Shown: positions 5,413-35,718 of the stretch, in pieces
Position numbering within the stretch: position 1 is the stretch's first letter
Layout of the letters: each line of letters begins with the position of its first letter
From: Lachnospiraceae bacterium
GTDB lineage: Bacteria > Bacillota > Clostridia > Lachnospirales > Lachnospiraceae
DNA: 61,479 bases
Direction of reading: 5' to 3'
Assembly: GCA_021205385.1 (NCBI GenBank)
Contig: JAJPXQ010000119.1
Location: 1-61,479 of the forward strand
Notes under the pieces: generated by a model
The model's database searches: none
What the model was told of the DNA's origin: nothing
What the model saw: the letters and a program-made list of their open reading frames with translations, nothing else
Position numbers and translations under genes: made by a program

Positions 5413-5428
5413 CCCCCGAACCTTTTAC

Positions 5429-16495: not shown

Positions 16496-16507
16496 CCGAT
16501 ACCTCCC

Positions 16508-17539: not shown

Positions 17540-17545
17540 CGCTGT

Positions 17546-18748
17546 TCACTCCGTCCCGTCCTCCAGTATCCAGAGCTCCTGATCCTCGATCTGATTTTCC
17601 AGAATTCCCGGATACTTTTCCCCATAGGCAGTGTAATCATTGATCTGCTCCTGCCGGAATATCGATACATACGGGAAATTCAGGAGATTCACTTGGGAGG
17701 AATCGTAAAAACCCTCCCGTATCATCGCGTTCATATTTTTCAGTCCCATGAGCAGCGTAAGCCCCAGGAAAAAGACTGCCGCCGCCCTCGCCGCGCGCTG
17801 TTCTTTTACGACCAGACGCAGCACCAGCACGCATTCCAGCACCTTGAATACAACCGCGTAACGGCTGGCATAATAGCTGTTCTGCATCAGCAGCATGTAG
17901 AGGCATATGCCGCACAGATAAGCCTTCAACAGCAGCTCTGTCTCCGCCTCAATCTCCTCTCCCGCTCTGCGCAGCAGAAAAAAGAGCAGAACCAGAACGG
18001 CGCAGCTGACCAGCCTTTCCGCCAGTGCAAACCAGCTGATTTCCCCCTCATGCAGAAACTGCCACAGATGATAGGACGGAAATATTTCCATCACCTTATT
18101 TTCCACAAAAGGAATCTGCAGGATCAGTCCTCCCGCTGCGGACAGAGCTGCCAGAGCCAGCATGATTTTCGTCGAGAGATAGTATACAAACGGCAAAATC
18201 AGCCAGATATACCCCGTTTTGTGAAAACCGGACGCGATGAGAACGCTCACCAGGTAGGGGATCCACTTCTTTTCCAGATAAAAGGGCAGCGCAATACCCA
18301 GGAACAGGCACATCGCCAGACCCTGCCGCAGCCCGGAGAGCATATAGACAAGGAAAAGCACGGGGTAAGCGAGAAAAAGTCCCGCCGTCCGGTGACCTGT
18401 GTATTTCGTCAGTACGCGGTGCAAAAGCAGCATCTCGACGAGACCCAGCGCGGCCGTGAATACCCAGAACGGCGCATGAAACGCGCGAAACAGCGCGCAG
18501 ATCAGCCGCCAGCCGATCTCCGGATAAACACCAAAAATATAGGAACGGGAGAAATCGACAGTCAGAGGAATCGAATTGTAAATCGCCTCGTAGGTGATAT
18601 AATCCGTCCCCTGCCCATAGCGCAGGCAGAGCAGCGCAGTCATCAGCAGCCAGCACACTCTGTAAATATTGTTTTTATACTGAGGACGGAACCATTCCAG
18701 CACAGATCCCGCCGCCAGCACCAAGAATACCAGCAGATATAAATTCAT
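17546..18748 (-). CDS. EpsG-family polysaccharide polymerase
   Basis: The 400-residue protein has about ten helices and the EpsG hallmark near the start: RVCWLLMTALLCLRYGQGTD followed by YITYEAIYN. A later motif FLVYMLSGLRQGLAMCLFLG is the usual SxxRQxxA block of this family. EpsG/Wzy-type proteins join lipid-linked repeat units outside the membrane. It overlaps the upstream UDP-GlcNAc 2-epimerase by 4 bases. A second polymerase-like protein (41655-42824) is encoded in a separate unit. Confidence 0.85.
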   Translation of the reverse strand: MNLYLLVFLVLAAGSVLEWFRPQYKNNIYRVCWLLMTALLCLRYGQGTDYITYEAIYNSIPLTVDFSRSYIFGVYPEIGWRLICALFRAFHAPFWVFTAALGLVEMLLLHRVLTKYTGHRTAGLFLAYPVLFLVYMLSGLRQGLAMCLFLGIALPFYLEKKWIPYLVSVLIASGFHKTGYIWLILPFVYYLSTKIMLALAALSAAGGLILQIPFVENKVMEIFPSYHLWQFLHEGEISWFALAERLVSCAVLVLLFFLLRRAGEEIEAETELLLKAYLCGICLYMLLMQNSYYASRYAVVFKVLECVLVLRLVVKEQRAARAAAVFFLGLTLLMGLKNMNAMIREGFYDSSQVNLLNFPYVSIFRQEQINDYTAYGEKYPGILENQIEDQELWILEDGTE

Positions 18749-19842
18749 GCGTTTCCTTCCAGAATATCGGCAATCCGCCTGCTCGCGAAGCCGTCGCCGT
18801 AGGGGTTGCTCGCAGTGCTCATGGCCTCATAGGCCGCTTTATCTTCGAGCAGAAGCTTAAAATTATCATAGATAACCTTCTCGTCCGTGCCGACCAGCTT
18901 CAGCGTGCCGGCCTTGATTCCTTCCGGACGCTCTGTCGTGTCACGCATGACGAGCACCGGCTTTCCAAGGGAGGGCGCCTCCTCCTGTATCCCGCCGCTG
19001 TCCGTCAGGACAAGATAGCTTCGCGCCAGGAAATTGTGAAAATCAAGCACATCGAGCGGCTCGATGATACGGATCCGCTCGTCGTCCCCGAGAATTTCGC
19101 GCGCCGTCTCCCGCACGACCGGATTCATATGAATCGGATAGATCGCACGGATGTCCGGATGCTCGTCGCATACGCGGCGGATCGCACGGAACATATGCCG
19201 CATCGGCTCGCCCAGATTCTCGCGGCGGTGCGCCGTGATCAGGATCAGGCGGCTGCCGGCTGCCCAGTCGAGCTCCGGGTGTGTATAGTCCTCCCGCACC
19301 GTCGTCTTCAGGGCGTCGATCGCCGTATTGCCGGTCACATAGATCGTATCCGGATTTTTCCCTTCCCGCAGGAGGTTCTGCCTCGAGAGCTCGGTCGGCG
19401 CAAAATTATACTGCGAAATAATACTGACAGCCTGTCTGTTAAATTCCTCCGGATAGGGCGAATAGAGATTGTAGGTGCGCAGTCCCGCCTCCACATGTCC
19501 GACCGGAATCTGCAGATAAAAGCAGGCGAGCGCGGTCACAAAGGTCGTGGAGGTATCGCCGTGGACGAGCACCACATCGGGCGCGACCTTTTCGAGCACC
19601 TCCCGGATGCGGTTCAGAATATTCGTTGTCACGTCGAAGAGCGTCTGCCGCTCCTTCATGATCGACAGGTCATAGTCCGGCACGACCGAGAAAGCCTCCA
19701 GCACCTGATCCAGCATCTGCCGGTGCTGACCGGTCACACAGACGACCGTCTCGATCCCCGGGCGCGTCTTCAGCTCGTTCACCAGCGGGCACATTTTGAT
19801 GGCCTCCGGCCTGGTGCCGAACACCAGCATTACTTTTCTCAT
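18745..19842 (-). CDS. wecB: UDP-N-acetylglucosamine 2-epimerase, non-hydrolysing
   Basis: This 365-residue protein contains the family blocks FGTRPEAIKMCPLVNEL at the start, VHGDTSTTF near 94-102, GHVEAGLRTYNLYSPYPEE near 115-133, and LTDSGGIQEEAPSLGKPVL near 282-300. It interconverts UDP-GlcNAc and UDP-ManNAc in the cytoplasm. With the WecC-type dehydrogenase of the other operon it could make UDP-ManNAcA. The similar enzyme WlbD acts on UDP-2,3-diacetamido-glucuronate, so a diamino-uronic substrate is an alternative given the amino-sugar genes nearby. Confidence 0.93.
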   Translation of the reverse strand: MRKVMLVFGTRPEAIKMCPLVNELKTRPGIETVVCVTGQHRQMLDQVLEAFSVVPDYDLSIMKERQTLFDVTTNILNRIREVLEKVAPDVVLVHGDTSTTFVTALACFYLQIPVGHVEAGLRTYNLYSPYPEEFNRQAVSIISQYNFAPTELSRQNLLREGKNPDTIYVTGNTAIDALKTTVREDYTHPELDWAAGSRLILITAHRRENLGEPMRHMFRAIRRVCDEHPDIRAIYPIHMNPVVRETAREILGDDERIRIIEPLDVLDFHNFLARSYLVLTDSGGIQEEAPSLGKPVLVMRDTTERPEGIKAGTLKLVGTDEKVIYDNFKLLLEDKAAYEAMSTASNPYGDGFASRRIADILEGNA

Positions 19843-20933
19843 CGTGTCTTCTCCTTCAGGCGCTCCCGAATCTGCTCCGCCAGCCTGTGATTGTTCCGCT
19901 CCACATCCGTGCGGCTCACAAAGCGCTCGACCGCAGCCGTCCAGCGACCATAGTTTCCGGCGACCTCACGGATCGCGGCCTCATAATCGTCAGAAGCGCG
20001 TCCCACCTTATATTTCTCACAGAAATCCTTAAGCGGCGGATTCGTGGATGTCACGACCGGAATTCCTTCAAACAGGAACTCGTAAATCTTCCCGCTCGCA
20101 CAGTATTTATTGTTCAGATCGCGCTGATGATAGGTCACCATGCCCACCTGAGAGTGTCCGATAAAATATTTCAGATGATCCTGGTCCATGCGCGGGAAGA
20201 TCTTCACATTGGTGAGCCCGAGCTCCTGAATCATGCCGCGGGCGATCTGCTCGTCTTCCTCCTCGCTCTCCCCGATGAGAAGCAGCTCATAGTCCTCCCC
20301 GAGACCCTTCATCGCCTCAATCATTCTGCCGGTCGTGCGGCTCATATCACAGCCCGCTGTGGAGATAATGCGGAATTTTTCCTCTTTGAAAAAGTCCGCA
20401 CACTCGGCCTCCACCTGCTCGCGCCGCTTCTGCGAGGTATAGCGAAGACTGCGAATATTTTCATAGTTCAACGGCTCCTCTTTCAGCCGGAATTTCTTCA
20501 CCATGATCTTCGCGCGGTAGGCGTTCGCCGCGATGACCACGTCCGAGCGCCGCGTAAAAAGCTTTTCCACCATGCAGCCGAGCCGCCCGGAAAGTCCGAC
20601 CGCGCTTTTACGGTCATAGAGCTCCCGGCAGTCCTGCACCATATAGCGCGCGCCCGTCATCTTTTTGGCGATCACACCCGGAATGATACCTTTGCGGTTG
20701 TCCACAAAGATCACATCCTGCGCGCCGACTCTCTGAACCTGCTGCATCACGAAGAGGATAAAATTGCTGTAGCCGTGATCCTGATAGAGAATGTGCGTCG
20801 CCTCCTGCGGCTCCTCCCCCTCCGATGCACGGGTGATATACCATACTTTTCCGAGCTCCTTCGCCGCCCGGACCAGCTCGCGCAGTCGCCCGTCATATGC
20901 GTAATAATCGTAAGATATCAGCAGTATTTTCAT
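19839..20933 (-). CDS. GT4-like glycosyltransferase
   Basis: The 364-residue protein begins MKILLISYDYYAYDGRLREL and has a GT-B layout, with RIISTAGCDMSRTTGRMIEA at the start of the second domain and a donor region KIYEFLFEGIPVVTSTNPPL near 275-295. The pattern places it in the large GT4 group. It overlaps both neighbours by ATGA junctions, between the aminotransferase and the UDP-GlcNAc 2-epimerase. Substrates are unknown. It could transfer the amino sugar made by the enzymes immediately upstream. Confidence 0.82.
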   Translation of the reverse strand: MKILLISYDYYAYDGRLRELVRAAKELGKVWYITRASEGEEPQEATHILYQDHGYSNFILFVMQQVQRVGAQDVIFVDNRKGIIPGVIAKKMTGARYMVQDCRELYDRKSAVGLSGRLGCMVEKLFTRRSDVVIAANAYRAKIMVKKFRLKEEPLNYENIRSLRYTSQKRREQVEAECADFFKEEKFRIISTAGCDMSRTTGRMIEAMKGLGEDYELLLIGESEEEDEQIARGMIQELGLTNVKIFPRMDQDHLKYFIGHSQVGMVTYHQRDLNNKYCASGKIYEFLFEGIPVVTSTNPPLKDFCEKYKVGRASDDYEAAIREVAGNYGRWTAAVERFVSRTDVERNNHRLAEQIRERLKEKTR

Positions 20934-22066
20934 GCTTCCGCCCCTGTCTTTTCCCGGATCAGACGAATAATGCGATCCTGATCCTCTGTCGATAGATACG
21001 GCGACACCGGTATCGCCAGCGTGCGTCTGCAGATATCCGTCGTCACCGCGAGGCTCTCGCCGTACAGGCAGACGTCCTCAAAGACCTTCTGCTGATGCAG
21101 CCCCTTCGGGTAATAAATCATCGTCGGCACGTCATTCTCCTGCAGGTATGCGCGTACCGCGTCACGCTGCGCCTCGTCCTTCAGAAGGATATTGTAGGAA
21201 GCCCAGCTGGAATAATAGCCCTCCGGCACGCGCGGGACCTTCACACAGTCCTGCAGCGCTTCCGTATAGCGCGCCGCTACCTTATTTACATCCTCCAGCT
21301 CATATTCCTGAAAGGCCTTCAGCTTCACCTGCAGCACCGCAGCCTGGATCGTGTCGAGGCGGGAATTCATACCAATGCGGACATTGTCGTACTTGCTGCT
21401 GCCCTTGCCGTGCACCCGCATCGAACGGATCAGCGCCGCCCACTCGTCATTGTCCGTAAACACCGCGCCGCCGTCGCCATAGCAGCCCAGCGGTTTCGCC
21501 GGAAAAAAAGAAGTCGTGGAAATATCGCCGAAGCTTCCCGCCCGTTTTCCATGGTAGACGCCGCCGAAGCCCTGCGCACAGTCCTCCAGAATGTAGAGAC
21601 CGTAACGGTCTGCGATCGCGCGAAGCCGCTCGTAATCCGCCGGAAGGCCGAAGAGATCGACCACGACGATCGCCCGCGGCTTTAATTTTCCCTCCGCTAC
21701 GACCGCCTCGATCACGCGCGTGAGGCTCTCCGGGTCGATCGTGAAAGTATCCTCCGACACGTCCGCGAAGACCGGCGTCGCACCGACGAAGGCTGCGGAC
21801 TCTGCAGAGGAGAAGAAGGTGTGGTCCGGCACAAAGACTGCGTCGCCGCTGCCAATGCCCCAGGCCTTCAGCGCCAGCACGAGCGCGTCTGTCCCGTTTC
21901 CGCAGCTGACACAGTTGCGCACTCCGATATAATCTGCCAGCTCCCGCTCAAGCTCATCGATCTGGTCTCCCGCGATATAATCTGAAGAGTCAAGGACGAC
22001 TTCAATCGCCGCGTCCATCTCCTTCTTTAATGCCCGATACTGGCTCTTCAAGTCCCGAAACTGCAT
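20930..22066 (-). CDS. DegT/DnrJ/EryC1-family sugar aminotransferase
   Basis: The 378-residue PLP enzyme has NCVSCGNGTDALVLALKAW near residue 57, the conserved DCAQGFGG block, and the PLP lysine in SFFPAKPLGCYGDGGA near 185-200. These enzymes aminate a keto-sugar nucleotide using glutamate or glutamine. The closest logical partner is the Gfo/Idh oxidoreductase at 27533, as in the GnnA/GnnB and WlbA/WlbC pairs that place an amino group at carbon 3. Assignment to C3 rather than C4 is inferred from that partner. It lies next to the acyl carrier protein, 3 bases downstream of its stop. Confidence 0.87.
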   Translation of the reverse strand: MQFRDLKSQYRALKKEMDAAIEVVLDSSDYIAGDQIDELERELADYIGVRNCVSCGNGTDALVLALKAWGIGSGDAVFVPDHTFFSSAESAAFVGATPVFADVSEDTFTIDPESLTRVIEAVVAEGKLKPRAIVVVDLFGLPADYERLRAIADRYGLYILEDCAQGFGGVYHGKRAGSFGDISTTSFFPAKPLGCYGDGGAVFTDNDEWAALIRSMRVHGKGSSKYDNVRIGMNSRLDTIQAAVLQVKLKAFQEYELEDVNKVAARYTEALQDCVKVPRVPEGYYSSWASYNILLKDEAQRDAVRAYLQENDVPTMIYYPKGLHQQKVFEDVCLYGESLAVTTDICRRTLAIPVSPYLSTEDQDRIIRLIREKTGAEA

Positions 22067-22069
22067 AAC

Positions 22070-22300
22070 TTACGCTTCCTCCTTTAACCGCTCGATAAGC
22101 TTTAAGATACCCTCCGCCGAATTGAAATTCTCCGGCACGATCTCCTCCGCCGGGATCTCCAGGGCATAACGCTCCTCCAGTTCCGCAATCAGCGTGATCA
22201 CATCAAAGGATGTAAAGACGCCGCCGTCGATCAGCTCCTTCTCATTTTCAAAATCAATTTCCGGCTTCAGCTGCGCCAGAAGCTCCCTTAATTCTTCCAT
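22070..22300 (-). CDS. Stand-alone acyl carrier protein
   Basis: The 76-residue acidic protein has the four-helix ACP pattern with the phosphopantetheine-accepting serine at about residue 31 in GVFTSFDVITLIAELEERY. The usual DSL is replaced by TSF. It probably carries an acyl or aminoacyl group as a thioester. In this operon it is accompanied by a DltA-like adenylating enzyme, a PLP decarboxylase and an LpxD-like acyltransferase, which is what one expects of a dedicated carrier system and not fatty-acid synthesis. No phosphopantetheinyl transferase is in the window. Confidence 0.87.
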   Translation of the reverse strand: MEELRELLAQLKPEIDFENEKELIDGGVFTSFDVITLIAELEERYALEIPAEEIVPENFNSAEGILKLIERLKEEA

Positions 22301-22319
22301 CTCATACTCCTTCTCTTAT

Positions 22320-23867
22320 CTAAAACTTGACCACAATGACGCCGTCGAGCATCTGAATGGATCCCGAATCCGGGTAGGACGGCATCTCCTGGACTTCCGG
22401 CAGCTCTGCATAGGCCGACGCGTCGAGCGTCTCCGGATCAAAGTTACACCAGATCTTCATCGTGATGCGCCACGCGTAGTTATTCAGAATACTGCTGCTG
22501 TCGTAAGGTATCAGCTCAATCTCCTTAAACTCCGGCAGACCGATGCTGCCGGAAGTATAATCATACTTTGCAAATTCATTCACATACACAACCGGCGTCT
22601 CATCGGTGAAGCCCTCTACGCTCTTGATCTGCGTGGCCAGCATGGTAAAGTAGCTGATCCCCTCAGACTGCATGACCTCCGCCTTGAGGTAGCAGATATT
22701 GTCAAAGCGCACGTACATTACATTCAGCAGCAGGAGCAGTCCGATACTGAGCACGGGCAGAGCGCGCCGCGCCTTCCCGCCGATTTTCTCCGCGGAAAAT
22801 TCTGGCAGAAAGCCGGCCTCCAGAAGCCACGCAAAATAAACATAAAACATCGCCTGCCCATAGACCATGAGCGAATCCACCGTGTCCGCCTCACACATCA
22901 CATAGATAAAATTCACCGCCAGCGGAATACAGAGCACAAACACCAGCGCCTGCAGGCAGAGCATCCGGTTCTTCCGGAAACAGCAATACAGCAGATTTGC
23001 GGTCCCGATCAGCGCCAGAATCAGAATCAGCCGGTATACGACATCGCTGGAGAAGGGATACATATTCGCGCTCACCGCATCGGTGGGACAAAAAAACTCC
23101 CGGTAAGCGACGAGCACTCTCTTAATGTAGCCTTTCAGGGAGGTCGAGCCCAGCGTGCTGATTCCCTGATAATCGGAGAGCGTATTACCTGTGAGTGTCA
23201 GCGACAGCTTCATGATCACAAAGTAAATCGCCATGAAACCCCCGCAGGAAAGCACGCTCCTGCAGGCTATATAAAAGAAATCCTTCCACTGCGCCGCTTC
23301 TTTTTTCACCGTCTGCATCAGCGCATAGAACAGGATGATACTGACAAATACCGGTATCATGGCCTGATAGGTGCCGACGCCGCAGGCCATAAGAAGCAGT
23401 CCCGCAAGATAGAGATACCATTTCCCTGTCCTGCAGCTAAGACAGGCGCCTGCAACACCCAGCAGAGTGCCGAAGAAATAATAGGGCATGGTAAACATAT
23501 AGCCGAAACCGCTGGTGATCATGGGAAAGACGACCAGCACGCCGGTCAACGCCGCCATCAGCCACCGATTCCTGATTTCAAAGAGATCGATCAGCAGCAT
23601 CGCGGACAGCGCGATAAACAGGATGGTCAGGATCCCGTTGAAGAGCGGCAGACTGTAGTAGGTACTCCCGAAAAGCCAGGTGTTCAGATCGCCGAGTATC
23701 CCCAGCATCCACCGGCCCAGATAGTACGTGCCGCCCAGGGTAAACAGCGACGCATCGTCATGAAAAGAGTACTTATTAAAAAACGCCATTCCATGCGCAC
23801 AGAGCCCCCACATAAGGGCGCTCAGCAAAATGAATTTATATCTCTCCAGACGTTCTTTTTCCAACAT
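22320..23867 (-). CDS. GtrII-like membrane glucosyltransferase-domain protein
   Basis: The 515-residue protein has about ten helices. The first outer loop FFNKYSFHDDASLFTLGGTY carries the acidic DD pair, and GRWMLGILGD follows, a pattern I associate with GtrII-type O-antigen glucosyltransferases. A soluble C-terminal domain starts near residue 390. Such proteins add side-branch sugars from polyprenyl-phosphate sugars outside the membrane. No GtrA flippase or GtrB synthase is in the window, so the donor source is unclear. It separates the ACP gene from the decarboxylase gene. Confidence 0.75.
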   Translation of the reverse strand: MLEKERLERYKFILLSALMWGLCAHGMAFFNKYSFHDDASLFTLGGTYYLGRWMLGILGDLNTWLFGSTYYSLPLFNGILTILFIALSAMLLIDLFEIRNRWLMAALTGVLVVFPMITSGFGYMFTMPYYFFGTLLGVAGACLSCRTGKWYLYLAGLLLMACGVGTYQAMIPVFVSIILFYALMQTVKKEAAQWKDFFYIACRSVLSCGGFMAIYFVIMKLSLTLTGNTLSDYQGISTLGSTSLKGYIKRVLVAYREFFCPTDAVSANMYPFSSDVVYRLILILALIGTANLLYCCFRKNRMLCLQALVFVLCIPLAVNFIYVMCEADTVDSLMVYGQAMFYVYFAWLLEAGFLPEFSAEKIGGKARRALPVLSIGLLLLLNVMYVRFDNICYLKAEVMQSEGISYFTMLATQIKSVEGFTDETPVVYVNEFAKYDYTSGSIGLPEFKEIELIPYDSSSILNNYAWRITMKIWCNFDPETLDASAYAELPEVQEMPSYPDSGSIQMLDGVIVVKF

Positions 23868-23885
23868 CTCTTTTGTATCCTTTTC

Positions 23886-25052
23886 CTATGAATTGAGCTT
23901 CCAGGTCGCAAGCACATCCCGGACCAGAACCGGACCGGCCGCCTCACTGTACAGATATATCGCCGGCATATCGCGGCTCAGGAAGAGGTACATTCCCTCC
24001 GTCACCGAGTAGGCGCCGATATTGTGGAAGACCAGGTAATCGCCGACCCTCACATCCGTGAGCGGCAGGCGTTTCAGCAGAATATCCGCCGTCGTACAGA
24101 GGGAGCCGTACACGGTCCACTCTTCCTCCCCGGCGCATTCCAGCGGATGCTGCGGGAAATACGACAGAACCGGCGTCTTCATCGCCATATTCTGCCCATA
24201 ATAATTGACATGATGGATACCGCCGTCCACGATCAGGACGTTCACCGCCTCGTTCCGCTTCTGGTCGACAATCTGCGTCATATAGTAGCCGCAGGAAGCG
24301 ACGAGGTAACGCCCCATCTCGAAGACCAGCTCATAGGGCCGCTCCTCCCGGGTGAGCGCCGCGAACTCGTCCAGCAGCCGCGCGTCCTCCTCAAAATCAT
24401 CCTTCGTAAAGTAGGGCACGCCGAGCCCCGGTCCATACTCCAGCGTCTGTGCGACGAAGTCCTCCTCCGTCTCAAGCCGCCGGATAAAATCCTCGATATA
24501 CTGAAGCTCCGTCGCGATCTTTTTGATCTGCTTTTTTTGCGTACCGGTGAAATACTGAAATCCTGCAATCTCTATACAGGGATACTGCTCCCGCTCCCGG
24601 AGCAGCGAGCGGACATCGTCCTCGCTCATGCCAAACTGGCTTCCGCTCGTCACGCGCAGCAGAATGTCCACTTTTCTGCCAAGCTCGTCCGCGCAGCGCT
24701 GCACGAGCTGAAACTGGCGCACGGACTCCGCGGTATAATGCCGGACGCCCTGCTCCATCGCGTAGCGGACATCTTCCGCCGCCTTATAGACGCCGGACAG
24801 CACGATCTTCTCCATGTCCAGCTCATTTTTCACACAGATATGGAACTCGCCCGGAGAACAGACCTCATAGCGATCCACTGAGGCGTCCATCGCCTTTATG
24901 AGAAAGGGATTGGCCTTGATCGCGTAGCACAGCTTCGCCGGAGCGAGCTTCTGCGCAATGCGCTGTACGCGCTCCTGCAGCATGTCCGTGTCGAACACAT
25001 AGGAGGGCGTTCCGAGCGTCTTTACCAGTTCCAAAAGCTTTTTCCCGTCCAT
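23886..25052 (-). CDS. PLP decarboxylase of the alanine-racemase fold (ornithine/DAP decarboxylase family)
   Basis: About 388 residues. The PLP lysine is K47 in CYAIKANPF, followed by YEVCSPGEF. The family EPGR block appears as FEMGRYLVA (R248), the catalytic cysteine is C319 in GSLCTTADIL, and NIGAYSV lies near 344-350. The usual HxGS loop reads FQYFTGTQ, with the histidine lost. ATG at 25052 has an AAGGAG site 6 bases upstream and is preferred over the longer frame. Its gene is next to a DltA-like ligase and near an ACP. In butirosin synthesis BtrK, of this family, decarboxylates an ACP-bound amino acid, so an ACP-tethered substrate is plausible here. Confidence 0.87.
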   Translation of the reverse strand: MDGKKLLELVKTLGTPSYVFDTDMLQERVQRIAQKLAPAKLCYAIKANPFLIKAMDASVDRYEVCSPGEFHICVKNELDMEKIVLSGVYKAAEDVRYAMEQGVRHYTAESVRQFQLVQRCADELGRKVDILLRVTSGSQFGMSEDDVRSLLREREQYPCIEIAGFQYFTGTQKKQIKKIATELQYIEDFIRRLETEEDFVAQTLEYGPGLGVPYFTKDDFEEDARLLDEFAALTREERPYELVFEMGRYLVASCGYYMTQIVDQKRNEAVNVLIVDGGIHHVNYYGQNMAMKTPVLSYFPQHPLECAGEEEWTVYGSLCTTADILLKRLPLTDVRVGDYLVFHNIGAYSVTEGMYLFLSRDMPAIYLYSEAAGPVLVRDVLATWKLNS

Positions 25053-25080
25053 CGTAAGCTCCTTTTTCATCCGAGTTGTA

Positions 25081-26586
25081 TCATAATTCCGCCATCAGCG
25101 CTTTCCGGTCAATCTTGCCGTTCTTCGTGAGCGGCATCTCCTCCACGCGCCGGAATACACTGGGAATCATAAACCGCGGGAGCCGTTCTGTCAACTGCGT
25201 GATAACCTCCTTTGCGTCCGGTTCTCCGACGTAAAAGGCAACAATCCGCGTATTCGGCTCATCGTAGACACAGCAGGCCCGCGCGATCCCGGGAAGTGCC
25301 TGCAGCGCCGTCTCGATCTCCCCGAGCTCGATCCGGTGCCCCATATGCTTGATCTGGAAATCCTTGCGCGTCACATAGTAGAGCTCCCCGTCCCCGCCGT
25401 AGCGCCCGAGGTCGCCGGTGCGGTAGATCAGCTCCCGGTAGCGCGTATGCAGCGGATTCTGCACGAAGGCCGCGGCCGTCTTCTCCTGCTCCCGATAGTA
25501 GCCGAGTGCCAGCGCCGTGCCGGACACGCAGATTTCGCCGAGCTTCCCGGCCTCTGTCACGAGAGCATCCTCCTCGTCCAGCAGGAAGACCCGCTCGTTC
25601 GGGAAAGCCCGCCCGATCGGGATGCTTTCCTCCTCCGAGAACTCCCGGTTTATCACGTAATACGTACAGTTGCAGGTGATCTCCGTCGGCCCGTAGAGAT
25701 TCACATAGAGTGCGTCCGGCAGATAAGTCCGCCAGTAATTCAGCTGCTTCACCGGCATGACCTCGCCGCTGAACAGCACCCGGCGAATGCTCCCCGGCAC
25801 CTTATAGCGAAAACCCTTCAGCATTGAGATGACACACAGCGCAGACACCGCCCAGGTGAGGTTTGTCACCTGCCGCTCATCGAGGAAATCGATCAGTTTT
25901 TTGGGGATCGAGAAATATTTTTTCGGAATCACCTCGAGCGTCGCTCCGGTCTTCAGCGCGCTGTAGATATCCTTGACCGACACATCGAAGTCAAAGGGCG
26001 CCTGGTTTCCGATCACATCTTCACGGTCAAAACCAAACATGCGGGTAAAATGCTCCGTAAAATCAATCACAGAGCGGTGCGATACCACGACACCTTTTGG
26101 CACGCCGGTCGAACCGGAGGTGAAGTTTGTATACAGTGGATCGACATCGCAGAAATTCTGTCTGCGCTCCGCGAGCAGCGCCTCGTCTGGCTCAGCGGCC
26201 AGGAGCTCCTCCGCGAGCAGAATCTTTCCCTCAAATCCGATTTTTTCAATCTTCACAAGAAGCTTCCGGTCGGTGACGAGCAGTCCCGCCTCCAGCGTCC
26301 GCAGAATCGACAGAATCCGTTCTGCCGGCTGCTCCGGTTCCACCAAAGTATAAAAGCAGCCCGCACAGACTGCCCCCAGAAATACGTTCAGCGTAAAGGC
26401 TTCCTTCTCCATCAGCACCGGCACCGGCGCGTTCTGCGGCAGCTCGCGCGCGAGTGCGCTGCCGATTCTCCGCGCGTCCGCCAGTACCTGCGCGTAGGTG
26501 AAACTCCGCTCCGCATCCTCAAACGCGATTTTCTCCGGGCAGTCTGCCGCACTGTTCTCGAGGTATTCCAGTACATTCTGAACCAT
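25081..26586 (-). CDS. DltA-like amino-acid adenylating enzyme (AMP-binding)
   Basis: The protein of about 501 residues has the core adenylation motifs: FTSGSTGVPKGV near 140-151, NQAPFDFDVSVKDIY near 185-200, NLYGPTEITCNCTYY near 285-300, YRTGDLGR near 385-392 and the C-terminal lysine in PLTKNGKIDRKAL. The aspartate in FDFDVS corresponds to the residue that binds the amino group in amino-acid activating domains, including DltA. It therefore probably activates an amino acid and loads the nearby ACP. The frame opens at a GTG at 26628, but the ATG at 26586 with a GGGAG site fits the family start. No DltB/DltD export genes are present. Confidence 0.88.
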   Translation of the reverse strand: MVQNVLEYLENSAADCPEKIAFEDAERSFTYAQVLADARRIGSALARELPQNAPVPVLMEKEAFTLNVFLGAVCAGCFYTLVEPEQPAERILSILRTLEAGLLVTDRKLLVKIEKIGFEGKILLAEELLAAEPDEALLAERRQNFCDVDPLYTNFTSGSTGVPKGVVVSHRSVIDFTEHFTRMFGFDREDVIGNQAPFDFDVSVKDIYSALKTGATLEVIPKKYFSIPKKLIDFLDERQVTNLTWAVSALCVISMLKGFRYKVPGSIRRVLFSGEVMPVKQLNYWRTYLPDALYVNLYGPTEITCNCTYYVINREFSEEESIPIGRAFPNERVFLLDEEDALVTEAGKLGEICVSGTALALGYYREQEKTAAAFVQNPLHTRYRELIYRTGDLGRYGGDGELYYVTRKDFQIKHMGHRIELGEIETALQALPGIARACCVYDEPNTRIVAFYVGEPDAKEVITQLTERLPRFMIPSVFRRVEEMPLTKNGKIDRKALMAEL

Positions 26587-26631
26587 AAAATCTGTCTCCC
26601 GCTTTCCTGTCTTTCCGACCGAGCCCACAAC

Positions 26632-27540
26632 TCACTGCTTCTTCTCCAGCACTCTTCGCGCGGGGTTCCCGAACTGCTTCTCATCCGCGGGAATGTCCCG
26701 GATCGCGGTCGCGCCGATCCCGAGGTAAGCGCGGTCTCCCACGCGCATCCGGTTCGTCGTCACCGCCATCGGCGCGACGTAGACATGCTCCCCGAGGTCG
26801 CAGTGCCCGGAGATACTCGACTTGCCGCCGATCGAGCTGTGCTCTCCGATCACACAGTTGTGCCCGACGTCGCCAAGGAGTCCGATCACCGAGCTTCTGC
26901 CAAGCACGGTCGTCCGTGAATCGCCCGCGGCCAGCACCGCCCCTGCCAGCAGGAGGCAGCCGTCCCCGATGACGGTCCCCGCCAGATGCGGCAGGTCGCG
27001 GCACACATCGTCGTCCAGGCGATACGTGTCGAGGTCGTCCACACCGATCAGACAGTGTTCCTGAATCTCCACGTTGTTTCCAATGCGCACGTGATCCTTG
27101 ATCACCGTTCCCGCGCCGATCCGGCAGTTGTCACCGATCACGACGTCCGCACCGATCACACAGAAGGGCGCGATCGTCACATTCGCGCCGAGCTTCAGGT
27201 CTTCGCTTACGAAGCTGCCGTCCCGCTGCTGTAATGCAGTTTTGGGCAACAGCGCGCGGAAACGCGTGAGGAGCACGCCGTACACGCTCTTCTGCATCGC
27301 GGCACGAAGCTGCACGCAGGATTCATGCAGACCCGGCAGCTCCACCTCCGCCTTCGTCACGAAGATGCTTTCCCGCACGCCCGCATAGTCTCCGCTCACA
27401 TCGGTCCGCGCGTAGATGATGCTGTTGCTCTCCGGCGCTTCCGGATCGGAGACACCGAATATTTTAAATTCCCGCCCGGCGAGTTCGGGGAACTCCTCCC
27501 CTGCCAGCTCGCAGGCGCTTACTTCTCCAACTTTAAACAT
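26632..27540 (-). CDS. LpxD-like hexapeptide-repeat acyltransferase
   Basis: The 302-residue protein has an N-terminal domain of about 105 residues and then a left-handed beta-helix of hexapeptide repeats (IGADVVIGDNCRIGAGTVI and onwards to about residue 285). This is the layout of LpxD, which transfers acyl chains from ACP to an amino group on a sugar nucleotide. This organism appears Gram-positive and would not make lipid A, so a role in glycan tailoring is likelier. Neighbours are the 3-dehydrogenase-like enzyme (8-base overlap) and the ACP-loading enzyme. A simple N-acetyltransferase using acetyl-CoA is the main alternative. Confidence 0.82.
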   Translation of the reverse strand: MFKVGEVSACELAGEEFPELAGREFKIFGVSDPEAPESNSIIYARTDVSGDYAGVRESIFVTKAEVELPGLHESCVQLRAAMQKSVYGVLLTRFRALLPKTALQQRDGSFVSEDLKLGANVTIAPFCVIGADVVIGDNCRIGAGTVIKDHVRIGNNVEIQEHCLIGVDDLDTYRLDDDVCRDLPHLAGTVIGDGCLLLAGAVLAAGDSRTTVLGRSSVIGLLGDVGHNCVIGEHSSIGGKSSISGHCDLGEHVYVAPMAVTTNRMRVGDRAYLGIGATAIRDIPADEKQFGNPARRVLEKKQ

Positions 27541-28612
27541 CGAATTCCCCCGCCATATCCGTGCTCCGGAAGCCCTTAAGCGGCAGCTTCACCGGCACGC
27601 CCTCCTTCTGGCTCTTGTAGATCGCGAGCACCATCTCAAGTGCGTTCCGTCCCGCCACGGCGTCCACATAGGGCTTCCGGTCCTTCCGGATCGCATCGAT
27701 CACGTCCGCATAGAGGCTCGTGTGACCGTTTCCGTAGACATTGCTCGTCTCTTCCTGCAAATGCTTATTTTCTGCGTCCCCGGCCTCCTCGTCCGCGAAT
27801 TCCCAGACGTCGATATTATTCGTGGACTTCCCGCCGAGCTTCACCGTGCCGTTTTCCCCGAAGAGATAGAGCGTCTCCTCCAGATTCTGCGGGTAGACGT
27901 TCGTCGTCCCCTCGATCGTCGCGACCGCGCCGTTCTTGAACTTTACGACCGCCAGGCCGACATCCTCCGCCTCAAGGTAGTGATGGAACTGCTGCCGCGT
28001 CACGCCGTAGACCTCCTCCACCTCGTCACCGAGCATCCAGCGCAGCAGGTCAATGCCGTGGATACACTGGTTCATGAGCGCGCCGCCGTCCGAAGCCCAT
28101 TTCCCGCGCCACGGCGCCTGATCATAGTAGGATTGGTTCCGGTTCCAGCGCACATGAACCGAGCCGTGAGACAGCTTCCCAAATCGTCCGGCTTCGAGCG
28201 CCCGGCGTGTCTGCTGCACCGCCAGATTGAAGCGGTTCTGATGGCAGGCAGAGACCTTCACGCCCTTTTCCGCCGCACAGCGGACGATCTCGTCCGCGTC
28301 CTCCATGTTCATCGCGATCGGCTTCTCGACGATGCAGTTCACACCATGATCGATGCAGAACAGCGCGATCTCGGCGTGAACACCGCTCTCCGTCGCGATG
28401 CCGACGAGCTCCGGCTTCACTTCCTCCACCATTTTCCGGTAATCCGTGTAACGCGCGATGCTCTCATCCTTTTCGAGACCATGCTTCGCGAGCAGCGCCT
28501 CCATCTGTGCGGGCTCCACATCGCAGACCGCCGCAAACGTGAGACCGTTGTTCCGTACCGCTTTGATATGGTTTGTTGCGATTCGGCCGCAGCCGATCAG
28601 TGCGTATCTCAT
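27533..28612 (-). CDS. Gfo/Idh/MocA-family sugar-nucleotide oxidoreductase
   Basis: The 359-residue protein starts RYALIGCGRIATNHIKAV, carries the catalytic CIVEKPIAM near 96-104, the ACHQNRFN block near 121-128, and DGGALMNQCIHGIDLLRW near 174-191. Enzymes of this kind, such as WlbA and GnnA, oxidise carbon 3 of a UDP-GlcNAc-type sugar so that an aminotransferase can act. The matching aminotransferase and an LpxD-like acyltransferase are in the same operon. Oxidation at C3 is inferred from these companions. It overlaps the WbuB-like transferase by an ATGA junction. Confidence 0.85.
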   Translation of the reverse strand: MRYALIGCGRIATNHIKAVRNNGLTFAAVCDVEPAQMEALLAKHGLEKDESIARYTDYRKMVEEVKPELVGIATESGVHAEIALFCIDHGVNCIVEKPIAMNMEDADEIVRCAAEKGVKVSACHQNRFNLAVQQTRRALEAGRFGKLSHGSVHVRWNRNQSYYDQAPWRGKWASDGGALMNQCIHGIDLLRWMLGDEVEEVYGVTRQQFHHYLEAEDVGLAVVKFKNGAVATIEGTTNVYPQNLEETLYLFGENGTVKLGGKSTNNIDVWEFADEEAGDAENKHLQEETSNVYGNGHTSLYADVIDAIRKDRKPYVDAVAGRNALEMVLAIYKSQKEGVPVKLPLKGFRSTDMAGEFDV

Positions 28613-29853
28613 CCCTCTACCTCTTTAAAAATATCCATATATTGTCTCGCGAGCAGCGAATAGCTGTACTTCTCGCGAATCTCACGCTTTCCTCTCTCCC
28701 CCATCGCCCGACGCTCCTCGTCCGTCATCCGGTAAACCCGCTGCAGCGCCTCCGCGTAGGCCTTCACATCCCCCGGCGGGACAACGATTCCGCCGCCCGA
28801 CTGGCCGACCACATTGACCGAGCCGCAGGCGAACACCGTCGGATTTCCAGAGTACAGATAATCGTTCAGCTTATTGAGGCTCAGACCCAGGTCGTTCAGC
28901 ACCCGGTCGTCCCGCAGCGCCGCGATACAGACCTTTGCCTTCGAGAGCGCGACCGCGACCTGGCTTTTCTGGATGCGCGGGAAAATCCGTACATTTTTCA
29001 GTGCATCCTCCTGCACGCGGCGCTTCACGTCCTCCTCCAGATAGCCGTTGCCGATGAAGGCAAATTTGATCTTATCATCTCCCTGCTCCTGCAGCCATTT
29101 TGCCGCGTCCAGCATATCAAAAAGCCGCTCCGAGTCGACAAAGCTGCCGGTGTAGACCGCGCACCAGTTTTCGCTGAGATAGCGATCCAGCTCCTCAGGC
29201 AGTTCCACCTCGCCCCTTGCCAGCACCTCGTCGATCTCCTCCGTATGGTAACCGTTCGGAATCCAGTAAATCCGGTCGCGCCTCACATAGGGAAACTGTC
29301 CCAGATAGCGATAGCCGAATTCCATCGTCGAGACGATCGCGTCCGCATGGCGATATGCGCGGCGCTCGAGCAGGGAAAACATCAGACAGGCCGGGTGATA
29401 TTTTGGTGTCCCGAAGATCTCCGTCAGGGACAGCGGCCAGTAGTCGCGAATCTCACAGATAAACGGAATCCGGTTTTTCTTCGCGATCGACCAGGCACTC
29501 TCCCAGGCAAAGGGATGCACCGACGAGCCGATCACCAGATCCGGAACGCCGAACTTTTTATAGAAGGCTTTCTCATATTTTTTCATGAGACGGCAGTAAT
29601 CCATCATATTCAGGATGCGGTTCAGGGAAATCCCGTGGTAGGCCGGCGCCGTGTGCAGGAAAACGTAGGTAATGCCCGGCTTCACCTTCCGGATCTTTAC
29701 TTCCTCATCGTAAGCGTAGGTCTCCCTCCCGTGCGTAAAGGAAGACATAAACACAACGACCTCCATACCGAGGGGCACCAGCTCCTTCGCCAGCTCGTAG
29801 TGGCGGTCTCCCTCCAGCCCCGAGTGATGGTTCAGTATCCACAGCTTTTTCAT
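28609..29853 (-). CDS. WbuB-like GT4 glycosyltransferase (second copy type)
   Basis: The 414-residue protein begins MKKLWILNHHSGLEGDRHYE and contains SSVHPFAWESAWSIAKKN followed by FICEIRDYWPLSLTEIFG, the same arrangement as in the protein at 8312-9568. The donor-side motif is NKLNDYLYSGNPTVFACG near 318-335. It probably transfers an amino sugar to the lipid-linked glycan. It follows the ATP-grasp gene with an ATGA overlap and precedes the Gfo/Idh gene. The two WbuB-like proteins are clearly diverged, so they are not a recent duplication. Confidence 0.85.
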   Translation of the reverse strand: MKKLWILNHHSGLEGDRHYELAKELVPLGMEVVVFMSSFTHGRETYAYDEEVKIRKVKPGITYVFLHTAPAYHGISLNRILNMMDYCRLMKKYEKAFYKKFGVPDLVIGSSVHPFAWESAWSIAKKNRIPFICEIRDYWPLSLTEIFGTPKYHPACLMFSLLERRAYRHADAIVSTMEFGYRYLGQFPYVRRDRIYWIPNGYHTEEIDEVLARGEVELPEELDRYLSENWCAVYTGSFVDSERLFDMLDAAKWLQEQGDDKIKFAFIGNGYLEEDVKRRVQEDALKNVRIFPRIQKSQVAVALSKAKVCIAALRDDRVLNDLGLSLNKLNDYLYSGNPTVFACGSVNVVGQSGGGIVVPPGDVKAYAEALQRVYRMTDEERRAMGERGKREIREKYSYSLLARQYMDIFKEVEG

Positions 29854-30824
29854 TCGTCCTGTTCCTCTCTTCGCAGCATGATCTCGCAGTATTTCATCAT
29901 CACGAGGCCGTCCTCATAGTCCCCGATCTGCGGCTCGTTCGCCTGCCCCGCGAGATTCTGCACGATGTATTTCATATGGTTGACGCCCGCCTCGTACGCA
30001 TGTGGATAACCCCCGCCGAATCTCGGATTGACCTCCGAGATATAGTAGACGCCGTCACAGTCAAAGAGGTCGATGTCGATCTGTCCGGTAAAACCGCTCT
30101 CCCGCACAAAGCGCTCCACGAGCGCGAAGAGCGCCGGATCCTTGAAGGAGACACCCTTGTCCGTCTCTCCCGCCCGCATGACGAGCTTCTTTTTCGAGAA
30201 GACCGAGATCAGATCACGGCTCTGCATATCGATATAGCAGTCCACGCCGATCTCCTGCCCGCGCAGATATTCCTGGATCATCAGTCCCTCCGTGTGGTCA
30301 AACAGAAGATCGACTGTCTCCCGGTCCTGCGCCACGGAGATCGCGATGCTCGCGCTCCCCCGCACCGGCTTGACAAAGACCGGATAAGAAATAAGCCCCT
30401 GCTCCACATCTCGGTAAAATTCCTCCCGCCCGATATAGCTCTTCGCGCAGGGATAACCGTGCTCACTCAGCCAGCGGTACATCTGCCACTTGTCAAGCGT
30501 GCGCTCGCACAGCTCATAGGAGGAGCCGATGACCGTGACGCCGAGCGCACGGAACTCCGCCTCGTGCTGCGCCAGCAGCGAGAGCTCCGGGTCGATCAGG
30601 GAAAAGACGCCCGTGATCCGCTCTTTCCTGCAGATATCATAGATAACGTCAAGATATCCGGGCGTGGTCATACGCGGCACGATATAGTGCCGGTCAGCCT
30701 CGTAGAGAGCCGGGGCGTTCGGACTCATGTCCGTCGCGACGACGAGTCCTCTCCCCTTCAGCTCTTTTTTCATATACTGTATGATTTTATTACGCGTACC
30801 ACAGCTCAGTATCAGAACATTCAT
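29850..30824 (-). CDS. ATP-grasp ligase
   Basis: The protein of about 324 residues has an N-terminal pre-ATP-grasp domain (NVLILSCGTRNKIIQYMKKE), the nucleotide-binding segment SYPVFVKPVRGSASI near 147-161, and the metal-binding end DIDLFDCDGVYYISEVNPRF near 252-271. ATP-grasp enzymes join a carboxylate to an amine or thiol through an acyl-phosphate. The ATG at 30824 overlaps the decarboxylase stop and has a GGAGGG site; the upstream frame extension is not used. In Neisseria, PglB2 carries an ATP-grasp domain thought to acylate the 4-amino group of the bacillosamine-type sugar. A similar job would explain why no PglD acetyltransferase is visible. Confidence 0.82.
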   Translation of the reverse strand: MNVLILSCGTRNKIIQYMKKELKGRGLVVATDMSPNAPALYEADRHYIVPRMTTPGYLDVIYDICRKERITGVFSLIDPELSLLAQHEAEFRALGVTVIGSSYELCERTLDKWQMYRWLSEHGYPCAKSYIGREEFYRDVEQGLISYPVFVKPVRGSASIAISVAQDRETVDLLFDHTEGLMIQEYLRGQEIGVDCYIDMQSRDLISVFSKKKLVMRAGETDKGVSFKDPALFALVERFVRESGFTGQIDIDLFDCDGVYYISEVNPRFGGGYPHAYEAGVNHMKYIVQNLAGQANEPQIGDYEDGLVMMKYCEIMLRREEQDE

Positions 30825-32011
30825 GTTTCCTTTTCCCTCCAGAGAGAACCCTGCGCGTACTCGCGCGCGCTCCACTTTTCGCGCACGAGGCGAAGTGCTC
30901 CGTTTTCCTCAAGCCAGACCGCCGGGAACCAGCTGATGAACAGAGGCGACAGGCACATCGTGTAGGCGCCGACCTTCTCGTAGACGATACGGTCCCCCTC
31001 GCACAGCGCCGATCCGTCCGCGATCTCGAAGAGACGGTCATTTTCCATACAGGTAAAGCCGGAGACCACCTGCTTTTTCAGGCATTCTCTCCCTTCTTCC
31101 CCATCCGCATACTCTATATGATGGAAATAACTCTTTTTCGTCATCAGCGGATCGACATGGATCCGGCTCCCGTCCGTCACCACGAAATGGTTGCGGTTCG
31201 TCTCCTTTGCGTCGATCACGGAAGTGACATATTCAATCGGCGGACAGATAAGGGAGGTCCCCGGCTCGACGATCAGCATCGTCTCCGCGGGATCATATTC
31301 CTCATGAAGAATCTCCGACATCTCGCGCAGATAGTCGGCATACTGCGGCTTATTCGCAAGACCGCCGAAGTAGCCGCCGCCCACGTCGATGTAGGACAGC
31401 TTCAGATCATATTCTCTGCGGAGCCTGCAGGCCGTCTGCGCGATCGCGCGGTAAATGGCAAGGCTGCGCGTTCTGGAGCTGCAGTGCAGATGAATTCCCG
31501 CGACCGTCGCGCCCGGTATCCCGCTCAGCGCCTCGAGCGCGCGGGCAAAATCCCCATTCTCATAGCTGAAGCCGAAGCGTCCGCCCTCCTCGCCGCCGGA
31601 CGCTTCGCCGGGGCACAGCGCCTCCAGGTCAAAATTCACGCGGATGCCGACCTGCACAGTCTGCCCGGACGCACAGGCCTCACGGAGCCAGCCGAGCTCC
31701 CGCTTCGCGTCCAGATTGACGATCTGTCCCGCCGCGCAGGCGCGCAGGAAGCTCTCCTTCCCCTTGACCGGCCCATTATAAATCATCCGCTCATAGCCCA
31801 TATACTCCGCGAGCTCGTACTCGTCCTGCGACACGACCTCCGCGCGGCAGCCCTGCTCCTTCATATACTGCAGCACCCAGGGCAGCGCGTTTGTCTTGAA
31901 CGAATACCCGATCGCCGCGTTCGGCCAGTAATCTTCCAGCGCTTTTTTCAGTTTTTCCATTCCCTCATCCAGCATGTCCTTATGGATCAGGTAATACGGA
32001 GTCTCCATCAT
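30821..32011 (-). CDS. Second PLP decarboxylase-fold protein (ornithine/DAP decarboxylase family), atypical
   Basis: The 396-residue protein has the PLP lysine K39 in GYSFKTNALP, the histidine loop GIHLHCSS near 172-179, the PLP-phosphate loop DVGGGYFGG near 209-217, a cysteine C321 in FTCMENDRL, and VGAYTM near 347-352. The family EPGR motif reads EPGTS (249-253), so the arginine that normally holds the substrate carboxylate is missing. The substrate is probably not ornithine, lysine or diaminopimelate. It starts directly after the stop of the PglC-like gene (TAG then ATG) and overlaps the ATP-grasp gene, suggesting the pair act together. Confidence 0.83.
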   Translation of the reverse strand: MMETPYYLIHKDMLDEGMEKLKKALEDYWPNAAIGYSFKTNALPWVLQYMKEQGCRAEVVSQDEYELAEYMGYERMIYNGPVKGKESFLRACAAGQIVNLDAKRELGWLREACASGQTVQVGIRVNFDLEALCPGEASGGEEGGRFGFSYENGDFARALEALSGIPGATVAGIHLHCSSRTRSLAIYRAIAQTACRLRREYDLKLSYIDVGGGYFGGLANKPQYADYLREMSEILHEEYDPAETMLIVEPGTSLICPPIEYVTSVIDAKETNRNHFVVTDGSRIHVDPLMTKKSYFHHIEYADGEEGRECLKKQVVSGFTCMENDRLFEIADGSALCEGDRIVYEKVGAYTMCLSPLFISWFPAVWLEENGALRLVREKWSAREYAQGSLWREKET

Positions 32012-32635
32012 CTATGCCTCTTCCTCCGGCGTTCCCATGAAATCCTCCATCGTGGCGGAGTTCTCGCTGTTGATCCCCTCTCGTTTCAGCACCTTGAAGA
32101 CTGTCTCAAAGAGAATGCGCACATCCTCTTTAAAGGAAAGGTTCTCGACATACTGCACGTCATACTCGAACTTCTGCTCCCAGGTAATGCTGTTGCGGCC
32201 GCGCACCTGCGCGAGACCGGTGACGCCGGGTTTCACATCATGCCGCCGATGCTGCCGCTTATTGTAGAGCGGAAGGTATTGCACGAGCAGCGGCCGCGGC
32301 CCCACCAGGCTCATATCACCCTTCAGAATATTCAGAAGCTCCGGCAGTTCATCGAGACTCGTACTGCGCAGCTTCTCCCCGAAGGGTGTCAGCCGCGCCT
32401 CGTCCGGCAGCAGCTCCCCCTGCTCATCCCGCTCATCCGTCATCGAGCGGAACTTGTACATACGAAAAATCCGCTCCTTATAGCCGGGCCGCTTCTGCGT
32501 GAACAGCACCGGGCGTCCAAGCTTCACAGCGACCAGCAGCGCCGTCACCCCCATCACGGGACTCAAGATAATCGTCGCCGGAATGGTCAGGCAGAGGTCA
32601 AATATTCGCTTTCCATACCGCCTGTAAAAACTCAT
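32012..32635 (-). CDS. PglC-like initiating sugar-phosphate transferase
   Basis: The 207-residue protein is the short monotopic form of the bacterial sugar transferase family. It has one N-terminal membrane helix ([18 protein letters not shown]), then KFRSM, the acidic pair in [17 protein letters not shown], and LVGPRPLL. PglC moves phospho-diacetylbacillosamine or a relative to undecaprenyl phosphate. The adjacent upstream genes are PglE- and PglF-like, so the substrate is likely a UDP-4-acylamido-trideoxy sugar. It abuts both neighbours without a gap. The operon therefore has its own starter enzyme, distinct from the one at 9561. Confidence 0.9.
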
Positions 32636-33769: not shown

Positions 33770-33790
33770 CTTTGCAATGCCTCTTTTCTT

Positions 33791-35653: not shown

Positions 35654-35689
35654 AGAACGCTCCCGGCGTATTTACACGCACTCTATGGT

Positions 35690-35718
35690 AGTTTACCATC
35701 TTTACCCTTATTTTACAA
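35690..35718 (-). promoter_or_regulatory. Promoter of the long glycan operon (pglF-like gene onward)
   Basis: On the reverse strand TTGTAA (35718-35713) and TAAACT (35695-35690) are 17 bases apart. The upstream bases GTCTTGTAAAA match the promoter at 10947-10975 over 11 positions. The -35 overlaps the last codons of the preceding glycosyltransferase gene. No other convincing promoter is seen downstream to 11797, so this one may serve about 24 kb. Confidence 0.6.

Follow-up and report, generated by a model that had tools for sequence, protein, structure and literature searches.

The window, a 61,479-nucleotide stretch that is one entire contig (JAJPXQ010000119.1) of a Lachnospiraceae bacterium (assembly GCA_021205385.1; 3.1 Mb, 97.8% complete), carries a compact set of genes that could prepare an amino-acyl group on a carrier protein and attach it to a sugar. 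The set encodes a stand-alone adenylation (A) enzyme, a stand-alone acyl carrier protein (ACP), a fold-III pyridoxal phosphate (PLP) decarboxylase that we call Dec2, a left-handed beta-helix (LbH) acyltransferase, a Gfo/Idh oxidoreductase and a DegT aminotransferase. We propose, with a probability of about 0.56, that an acidic amino acid is activated, loaded onto the ACP, decarboxylated there and moved by the LpxD-like LbH enzyme to the 3-amino group of a uridine diphosphate (UDP) sugar.

In this route, the A enzyme would activate an acidic amino acid at its side-chain carboxylate and load it onto the ACP. Dec2 would take off the alpha-carboxylate on the carrier to leave an omega-amino acyl group, with beta-alanyl from aspartate as the first choice and 4-aminobutyryl from glutamate as the second. 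Decarboxylation by Dec2 on the loaded carrier would require the A enzyme to have used the other carboxylate (beta of Asp or gamma of Glu), since PLP decarboxylases depend on a free carboxylate at the amine-bearing carbon. Meanwhile, the Gfo/Idh enzyme would oxidize C3 of the UDP-sugar and the DegT enzyme would aminate it, whereupon LbH could move the acyl group from the ACP to the 3-amino group. The sugar would then be polymerized and exported by the glycosyltransferases of the locus and an EpsG-type polymerase. Outside the genus, a membrane-bound O-acyltransferase (MBOAT) probably puts a like group on an exported polymer. We infer the substrate, the order of loading and decarboxylation, and the donor and acceptor of the acyltransferase from the observed gene content, gene order, conservation, protein families and catalytic residues. 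The sequence of steps from activation to transfer onto a 3-amino sugar had been put forward in the original prediction, and it stands as the most economical reading given the nearness of the enzymes to BtrK and LpxA/LpxD and the conservation within the genus. That prediction missed the triad's own life outside the genus, and its GnnA/GnnB model for the sugar steps has been replaced.

Gene content and conservation of the locus

The six genes had been predicted to form one same-strand run, and their coordinates and families are borne out: all lie on the minus strand, each with family matches (Table 1), at a spacing of -8 to 19 bases (20930..28612). This run is part of a longer one-strand run, which extends from a PglF-like dehydratase gene (35653) to EpsG and two more genes (15698). 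From the LegC-like aminotransferase gene (33769) downstream the gaps are -55 to 19 bases, the value of -55 holding only if the ATP-grasp frame begins at an early alternative start. The prediction had not mentioned a GtrII gene inside the six-gene run, nor the upstream genes for a second decarboxylase (Dec1), a PylC-like ligase, PglF-like and LegC-like enzymes and a sugar-phosphate transferase. A promoter and terminator scan of positions 16500-36400 gave counts near the shuffled level (13 and 16, against shuffled means of 9.2 and 14.4).

Across 98 genomes searched at E 1e-40, Dec2 was found in all 17 genus genomes, counting that of the window. Elsewhere in the family, 11 of 43 genomes representing other genera had it, as did 0 of 38 from different families in the same order. 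With a wider draw of one genome per genus (E 1e-60), Dec2 was present in 56 of 299 family genomes, again counting the window's own. Dec2 is matched once per genus genome, in G002 as two fragments. All 16 other genus genomes preserve the order Gfo/Idh, LbH, A, Dec2, ACP, DegT, which G002 has split across two contig fragments, and the block is followed by the same glycosyltransferase, WecB, EpsG and DUF6077 genes wherever a contig extends far enough. Other members are less constant: GtrII is found in 5, Dec1 in 6 and the PylC-like ATP-grasp gene in 8 of these 16 genomes, with some contigs ending too early to tell. The tight spacing and genus-wide conservation of the run are far beyond chance.

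Synthesis of a small secreted molecule or peptide, in place of a polysaccharide decoration, is a highly improbable role for these genes. A enzymes and stand-alone ACPs are common in small-molecule clusters, and two related loci (L117 and L127) show more than one A-enzyme match each. The window set, however, is embedded among nucleotide-sugar, glycosyltransferase and EpsG genes, and no condensation or ketosynthase family was detected in the 43 window frames, a part of all frames, that were scanned with Pfam.

Carrier loading and decarboxylation

Dec2 had been likened to BtrK, and among solved structures BtrK is indeed its nearest relative, with an E value of 2.1e-32 in the Protein Data Bank (PDB) versus 1.8e-28 for the best LysA. 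By eye, the two proteins share the stretches TGTQ, VPYF, VDGGxHH and LCTxxD. BtrK decarboxylates a glutamyl group bound to the ACP BtrI (PMC7857480). The PLP lysine of Dec2 (Lys52) and Cys325 are invariant in 14/14 aligned sequences.

When the Dec2 alignment was used to scan named genomes, at least 595 stretches were returned, of which at least 586 hold Dec2 relatives at E 1e-3 or better, though not all need be of this kind. Their source titles are mostly Clostridia, chiefly Lachnospiraceae, with one or a few records of metagenome-assembled genomes titled Treponema, Paenibacillaceae or Bacteroides. The best 80 of these relatives define the loci compared below (14 from the genus and 66 from outside it). 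Dec2 matches span 330 residues or more in 79 of these loci; there, LCTxxD occurs 79 times, DGG[IVM][HN] 78 times and [TS]GT[QL] 74 times. Curated models fit Dec2 less closely. Its best NCBIfam match, TIGR03099, reaches 190.7 bits (cut-off 478.45), and TIGR01048 gives 170.6-174.7 bits (cut-off 297.9). Dec2 as the LysA of this genome was rejected, a separate LysA-type match lying on contig C134 with 271.9 bits, below the same cut-off and far above Dec2. In a tree, Dec2 (27 rows) and Dec1 (6 rows) each form one group.

The A enzyme exceeds the cut-off of TIGR01733 (324.2 bits; 317.4) and carries an Asp at position 235, whereas it reaches 304 bits against the DltA model (cut-off 559.85). Its best PDB match is LgrA. 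The accompanying ACP scores 30.1 against DltC (cut-off 68) and retains the ACP Ser, as do all 77 sequences compared (the window plus the 76 of 80 loci with an ACP match). A phosphopantetheinyl transferase is found above cut-off in 15/17 genus genomes. We read the specificity pocket from hand-placed GrsA positions in 71 sequences, namely the window and the 70 loci whose match covers 420 residues or more. The pattern DVK[ITV][LMI]S[LVI]CN is present in 66/71 and is near-identical inside and outside the genus; D235 (70/71), V236 (66/71) and S301 (67/71) are each frequent, and the larger residues at 236 and 301 agree with a VinN-type pocket, though they are not diagnostic alone. Lys239 could hold the free carboxylate, a fit for an acidic group, and Glu codes with Lys239 exist. 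Asp235 would hold the beta-amino group as it does in VinN (PMC11253843). A-enzyme pockets differ in L070, L071, L078 and L085 (DAKCAV...), loci in which some kilobases separate Dec2 from the A gene.

The substrate of Dec2 might instead be a free amino acid or a late product already joined to the sugar, with the A enzyme loading Ala, Ser or Gly and no decarboxylation taking place on the carrier. Such an arrangement strikes us as quite unlikely. Dec2 is accompanied by the A enzyme in 75 and by the ACP in 76 of the 80 loci, has BtrK as its closest PDB relative and persists in loci whose end enzymes differ. Nonetheless, Dec2 is a LysA homologue by its sub-cut-off match to TIGR01048 (174.7 bits), and the LgrA match of the A enzyme and the overlap of its pocket with a Ser code would suit such a substrate. 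Fold-III decarboxylases are also described as acting on large conjugates, as for FigC/FslC and MccE (PMC7857480).

Carrier-bound decarboxylation has parallels in antibiotic synthesis. The VinN-VinL-VinO set of vicenistatin, which supplies macrolactam starter units, likewise groups an A enzyme with Asp at 235, a stand-alone ACP and a PLP decarboxylase; the ACP-loaded amino acid is decarboxylated, VinO needs the ACP thioester, and FlvN is an Asp-selective counterpart of VinN (PMC11284099). Unlike that set, the window run contains no detected second A enzyme (VinM), VinK or polyketide synthase, its proposed acceptor is a sugar or surface polymer, and neither the short loop of VinN nor K330/R331 was seen in the window A enzyme. 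The BtrI-BtrJ-BtrK system of butirosin synthesis resembles the window set in the closeness of Dec2 to BtrK and in the carrier-bound decarboxylation that we propose. There, however, the ATP-grasp ligase BtrJ loads the carrier, whereas loading here would fall to the A enzyme, and the ATP-grasp gene of the window accompanies the run in just half of the other genus genomes. The ligase and decarboxylase of the XrtA/exosortase-A set (TIGR03098 and TIGR03099) represent the same pair of families, but the window proteins score far below those cut-offs (ligase 204.6 of 592.35; decarboxylase 190.7 of 478.45). The Streptococcus pyogenes qim operon proved a false lead as a parallel, a term search of PMC13059722 giving no match. 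No description of this gene combination was found in the open-licence PMC literature at the level of titles and abstract openings.

Acyl transfer, sugar synthesis and the MBOAT partner

The acyltransferase had been called LpxD-like. LpxD is its best-scoring curated model (110.0 bits), but this score lies below the cut-off (242.5), as does that for LpxA (94.0; cut-off 226), and the NeuD model ranks between them (97.8; cut-off 160.8). A profile search of the PDB places LpxA/LpxD (best E 3.5e-20) ahead of the WlbB-type 3mqg (9.1e-7). H227, within GHNC, and H246 are invariant in 12/12 aligned genus sequences, and H227 aligns with a His of LpxA 5dem that we take to be catalytic. The protein ends 7 residues after its GNPAR motif.

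For the sugar steps, the nearest solved relatives of the Gfo/Idh enzyme are 3q2k and 3q2i, which we take to be WlbA. The best PDB match of the DegT enzyme is 4qgr (E 3e-112), which has no specific name, followed by WbpE (E 4.3e-83). A nucleotide-sugar 6-dehydrogenase gene directly precedes Gfo/Idh in 7/11 named genus loci examined (L061-L067, at about 5150-6500) and is not there in L056, L057, L059 and L068. These dehydrogenases, of about 437 residues and 88-97% identical to one another, look WbpA-like by eye and score above cut-off only for the general model TIGR03026. Their place before Gfo/Idh fits the first steps of the Wbp route (PMC10622841). Because of the PDB ranking and the adjoining 6-dehydrogenase, the Wbp/Wlb pathway to UDP-ManNAc3NAcA is a closer model in the sister species than the GnnA/GnnB pair of the original prediction, which may still apply in the window species. 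The gene set here and the Wbp/Wlb pathway share a WlbA-like Gfo/Idh enzyme, a WbpE-like DegT enzyme and a hexapeptide N-acyltransferase; they differ in that an LpxD-like enzyme and ACP cassette stand in place of the acetyltransferase. The window species also lacks the sister-type 6-dehydrogenase, and its sugar may therefore not be a uronic acid. Its own Cap5O-like gene shares 31-32% identity with the dehydrogenase found ahead of Gfo/Idh in the sister species. WecB as the WbpI step was not adopted: the locus also has the Cap5O-like dehydrogenase, and a WecB of 80% identity occurs on a 12 kb triad contig (L050) in which LbH, Gfo/Idh and DegT all went unmatched. The role of WecB may instead lie in a ManNAcA route.

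The sugar half also occurs without the carrier genes. Relatives of LbH at E 1e-25 were found in 5/390 other genomes of the class, and three of these (L144-L146) lie in sugar loci whose dehydrogenase shares 71-74% identity with its L067 counterpart and which include LegC-like and sugar-transferase genes. A DegT2-like gene is present at 37-48% identity, and Gfo/Idh at 46% in L144 but just 23-24% in L145 and L146. The stretches taken from these three loci gave no match to A, Dec2 or ACP. The remaining two have flagellar genes around them, by eye. In L144 (6842-9936, minus strand) two LbH acyltransferases flank an AMP-forming ligase gene within a Wbp-like locus that has no ACP match, possibly a coenzyme A (CoA)-based analogue.

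Conversely, the A-Dec2-ACP triad travels as a unit, mostly beside a different end enzyme. By tblastn over the 80 Dec2 loci, an A enzyme was matched in 75/80, an ACP in 76/80 and an MBOAT in 49/80. A DltB-like MBOAT of at least 450 aligned residues accompanies the triad in 48/80, and in none of the 14 genus loci within the stretches taken (up to 10 kb on each side). The LbH profile, in turn, gave no match in the 66 loci outside the genus. The MBOAT of L042, the sole one scanned against NCBIfam, is DltB-like with 160.7 bits (cut-off 375). The Treponema locus L082 has the triad, and no MBOAT was matched there. Distances among A enzymes and among Dec2 proteins correlate (r 0.85, 71 loci), although such a correlation does not separate co-transfer from common descent. 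Parting of the genes among homologous loci had been named beforehand as a point that would count against the prediction: they do travel together within the genus, whereas outside it the triad and the sugar half part. Since the halves are joined inside the genus but apart outside, we read them as two modules, and the window genus looks like the place of their joining. Another triad contig, L050, encodes an asparagine-synthase-like protein and a thioesterase (4455-6356 and 709-1401) and no member of the MBOAT cluster.

The MBOAT loci recall teichoic-acid D-alanylation (Dlt), with a DltA-like A enzyme, a DltC-like ACP and a DltB-like MBOAT. They are unlike Dlt in that all three proteins fall below the curated cut-offs (559.85, 68 and 375), a decarboxylase is present, and the four cl4-type proteins scanned match no Pfam family. 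An MBOAT encoded elsewhere could also receive the triad's product in the window genus, for a Dlt-like ester decoration, LbH being then an acetyl-CoA N-acetyltransferase of a Wbp-type pathway and the shared operon serving co-regulation only. MBOAT is the common partner of the triad outside the genus, homologues occur in 17/17 genus genomes, and the window genome has two (contigs C146 and C134) that neighbour cl4-like genes, neither an A enzyme nor an ACP being found close to them; the form of LbH and one of its PDB matches, given below, would also suit acetyl-CoA. We nonetheless consider this explanation unlikely. Throughout the genus the triad sits between LbH and DegT, the 14 genus stretches hold no MBOAT of that length, and each genus genome has one Dec2 match. 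LbH itself is nearer to acyl-ACP enzymes than to WlbB, and the ligase gene flanked by LbH relatives in L144 hints at donors other than acetyl groups. A second A enzyme on contig C110 was rejected as part of a dlt operon, no MBOAT, ACP or cl4 match lying beside it.

Several observations weigh against N-acylation of the sugar from a decarboxylated aminoacyl-ACP. Ending so soon after GNPAR, LbH lacks the C-terminal helices of LpxA/LpxD, which in those enzymes touch the ACP. Its alignment to LpxD 2iu8 (residues 24-159 with 44-182; 25.9 bits, i-E 4.6e-5) is weak and lies partly over helix repeats. The PDB matches of LbH further include QdtC (7.2e-14 over 72 positions), which we take to use acetyl-CoA on a 3-amino sugar. 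The MBOAT homologues elsewhere in the window genome could use the ACP. A search of that genome's assembly turned up no phosphopantetheinyl transferase (0/1). In the tree, BtrK pairs with the LysA of this genome and not with Dec2, although the three references sit on long branches and their placement is unsure. For the A enzyme, the assignment to Asp and the sameness of substrate across loci are weak: V236 and S301 also fit a Ser-like pocket, position 278 holds T within the genus while most other loci carry I or V there, and the shortened beta13-beta14 loop of VinN was not seen in a comparison by hand against a GrsA motif. A PF03721 search of the window genome for the sister-type 6-dehydrogenase gave only the Cap5O-like gene, a 27% identical protein on contig C81 and one weak match. 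Finally, the Gfo/Idh match in G007 is in two pieces, and conservation inside a single genus may reflect one evolutionary event.

More broadly, and with somewhat less than even confidence, we suggest that these genes represent a widespread and previously undescribed Clostridia counterpart of Dlt, in which decarboxylation on a carrier yields beta-alanyl or 4-aminobutyryl decorations of the surface through interchangeable ends. In most lineages an MBOAT would O-acylate an exported polymer, whereas in this genus, within a family without lipid A, an LpxD-like enzyme would N-acylate a UDP-3-amino sugar in the cytoplasm and so replace the Wbp-like acetyltransferase step. If true, these Clostridia would have a second route besides D-alanylation for placing free amines on surface glycans, and carrier-bound decarboxylation, otherwise known from antibiotic synthesis (BtrK, VinO), would serve such glycans, with an LpxD-like acyltransferase using a dedicated aminoacyl-ACP. 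Many further loci among the at least 586 stretches with Dec2 relatives would then become easier to interpret as well. The charge of surface polymers influences how bacteria withstand cationic peptides, how phages adsorb and how the immune system recognizes commensals. Because the two end enzymes share a near-identical A-enzyme pocket, the idea is directly testable.

Other features of the window and related loci

Table 1. Positions, strands and supporting matches of genes in the window
Feature	Position	Strand	Match or motif
Gfo/Idh oxidoreductase, proposed UDP-sugar 3-dehydrogenase (WlbA-like)	27533..28612	-	PF01408, PF02894; 3q2k E 3.7e-76, 3q2i
LbH (hexapeptide) acyltransferase, proposed acyl-ACP:UDP-3-amino-sugar N-acyltransferase	26632..27540	-	Hexapep; LpxD/LpxA-like below cut-offs
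Stand-alone A enzyme	25081..26628	-	TIGR01733; pocket D V K T L S L C N K
Dec2, BtrK-like fold-III PLP decarboxylase, proposed ACP-bound substrate	23886..25070	-	PF02784 E 1.3e-23
GtrII-family glucosyltransferase, between decarboxylase and ACP	22320..23867	-	PF14264 E 6.4e-59
Stand-alone ACP	22070..22300	-	PF00550 21.4 bits, gathering score 20.8; motif FTSFDVI
DegT aminotransferase, proposed sugar 3-aminotransferase (WbpE-like)	20930..22066	-	PF01041 E 2e-102
UDP-GlcNAc 2-epimerase WecB	18745..19842	-	TIGR00236 520.4 bits, cut-off 210.15
Candidate glycosyltransferase downstream of DegT	19839..20933	-	Weak Pfam matches below cut-off; kept in genus
GT4-family glycosyltransferase upstream of Gfo/Idh	28609..29853	-	Pfam
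PylC-like ATP-grasp ligase, proposed partner of Dec1	29850..30875	-	NF009406 490.1 bits, cut-off 271
Dec1, second fold-III PLP decarboxylase, LysA/FslC-like	30821..32011	-	Family matches
Sugar-phosphate transferase	32012..32635	-	PF02397 E 5.3e-62
LegC-like DegT aminotransferase, proposed 4-amino sugar	32636..33769	-	TIGR04181 362.7 bits, cut-off 420
PglF-like UDP-sugar 4,6-dehydratase	33791..35653	-	PF02719 E 3.9e-124; CoA_binding_3 front
Cap5O-like nucleotide-sugar 6-dehydrogenase, proposed UDP-ManNAc	5429..6652	-	Cap5O E 2.2e-110

The genes for Dec1 and the PylC-like ligase (29850-32011), both variable in the genus, adjoin the 4-amino-sugar genes of the window. We suppose that the two enzymes might attach an amino acid to a 4-amino sugar and decarboxylate it there. 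In L059, L067 and L068 a protein of about 300 residues takes the place of Dec1 and the ligase; two of these were scanned, without a Pfam match. Homologues of Dec1 that are 41-44% identical form the C-terminal portion of a roughly 640-residue protein in L151 (1474-3402, minus strand) and also in L152-L155. By eye, the front of this fusion has the look of a PseF/NeuA-type cytidylyltransferase (L151-L155; one other genus of the family, 5/390 other genomes of the class).

Two further window proteins lie apart from the six-gene run. One, encoded at 13428-15710 in the polysaccharide locus, combines lamin-tail, CotH-kinase, chitobiase-like and InlB B-repeat domains within a single chain. The other is a 302-residue frame at 53510-54418 that matches LPG_synthase_C (PF09924, E 1.2e-57).

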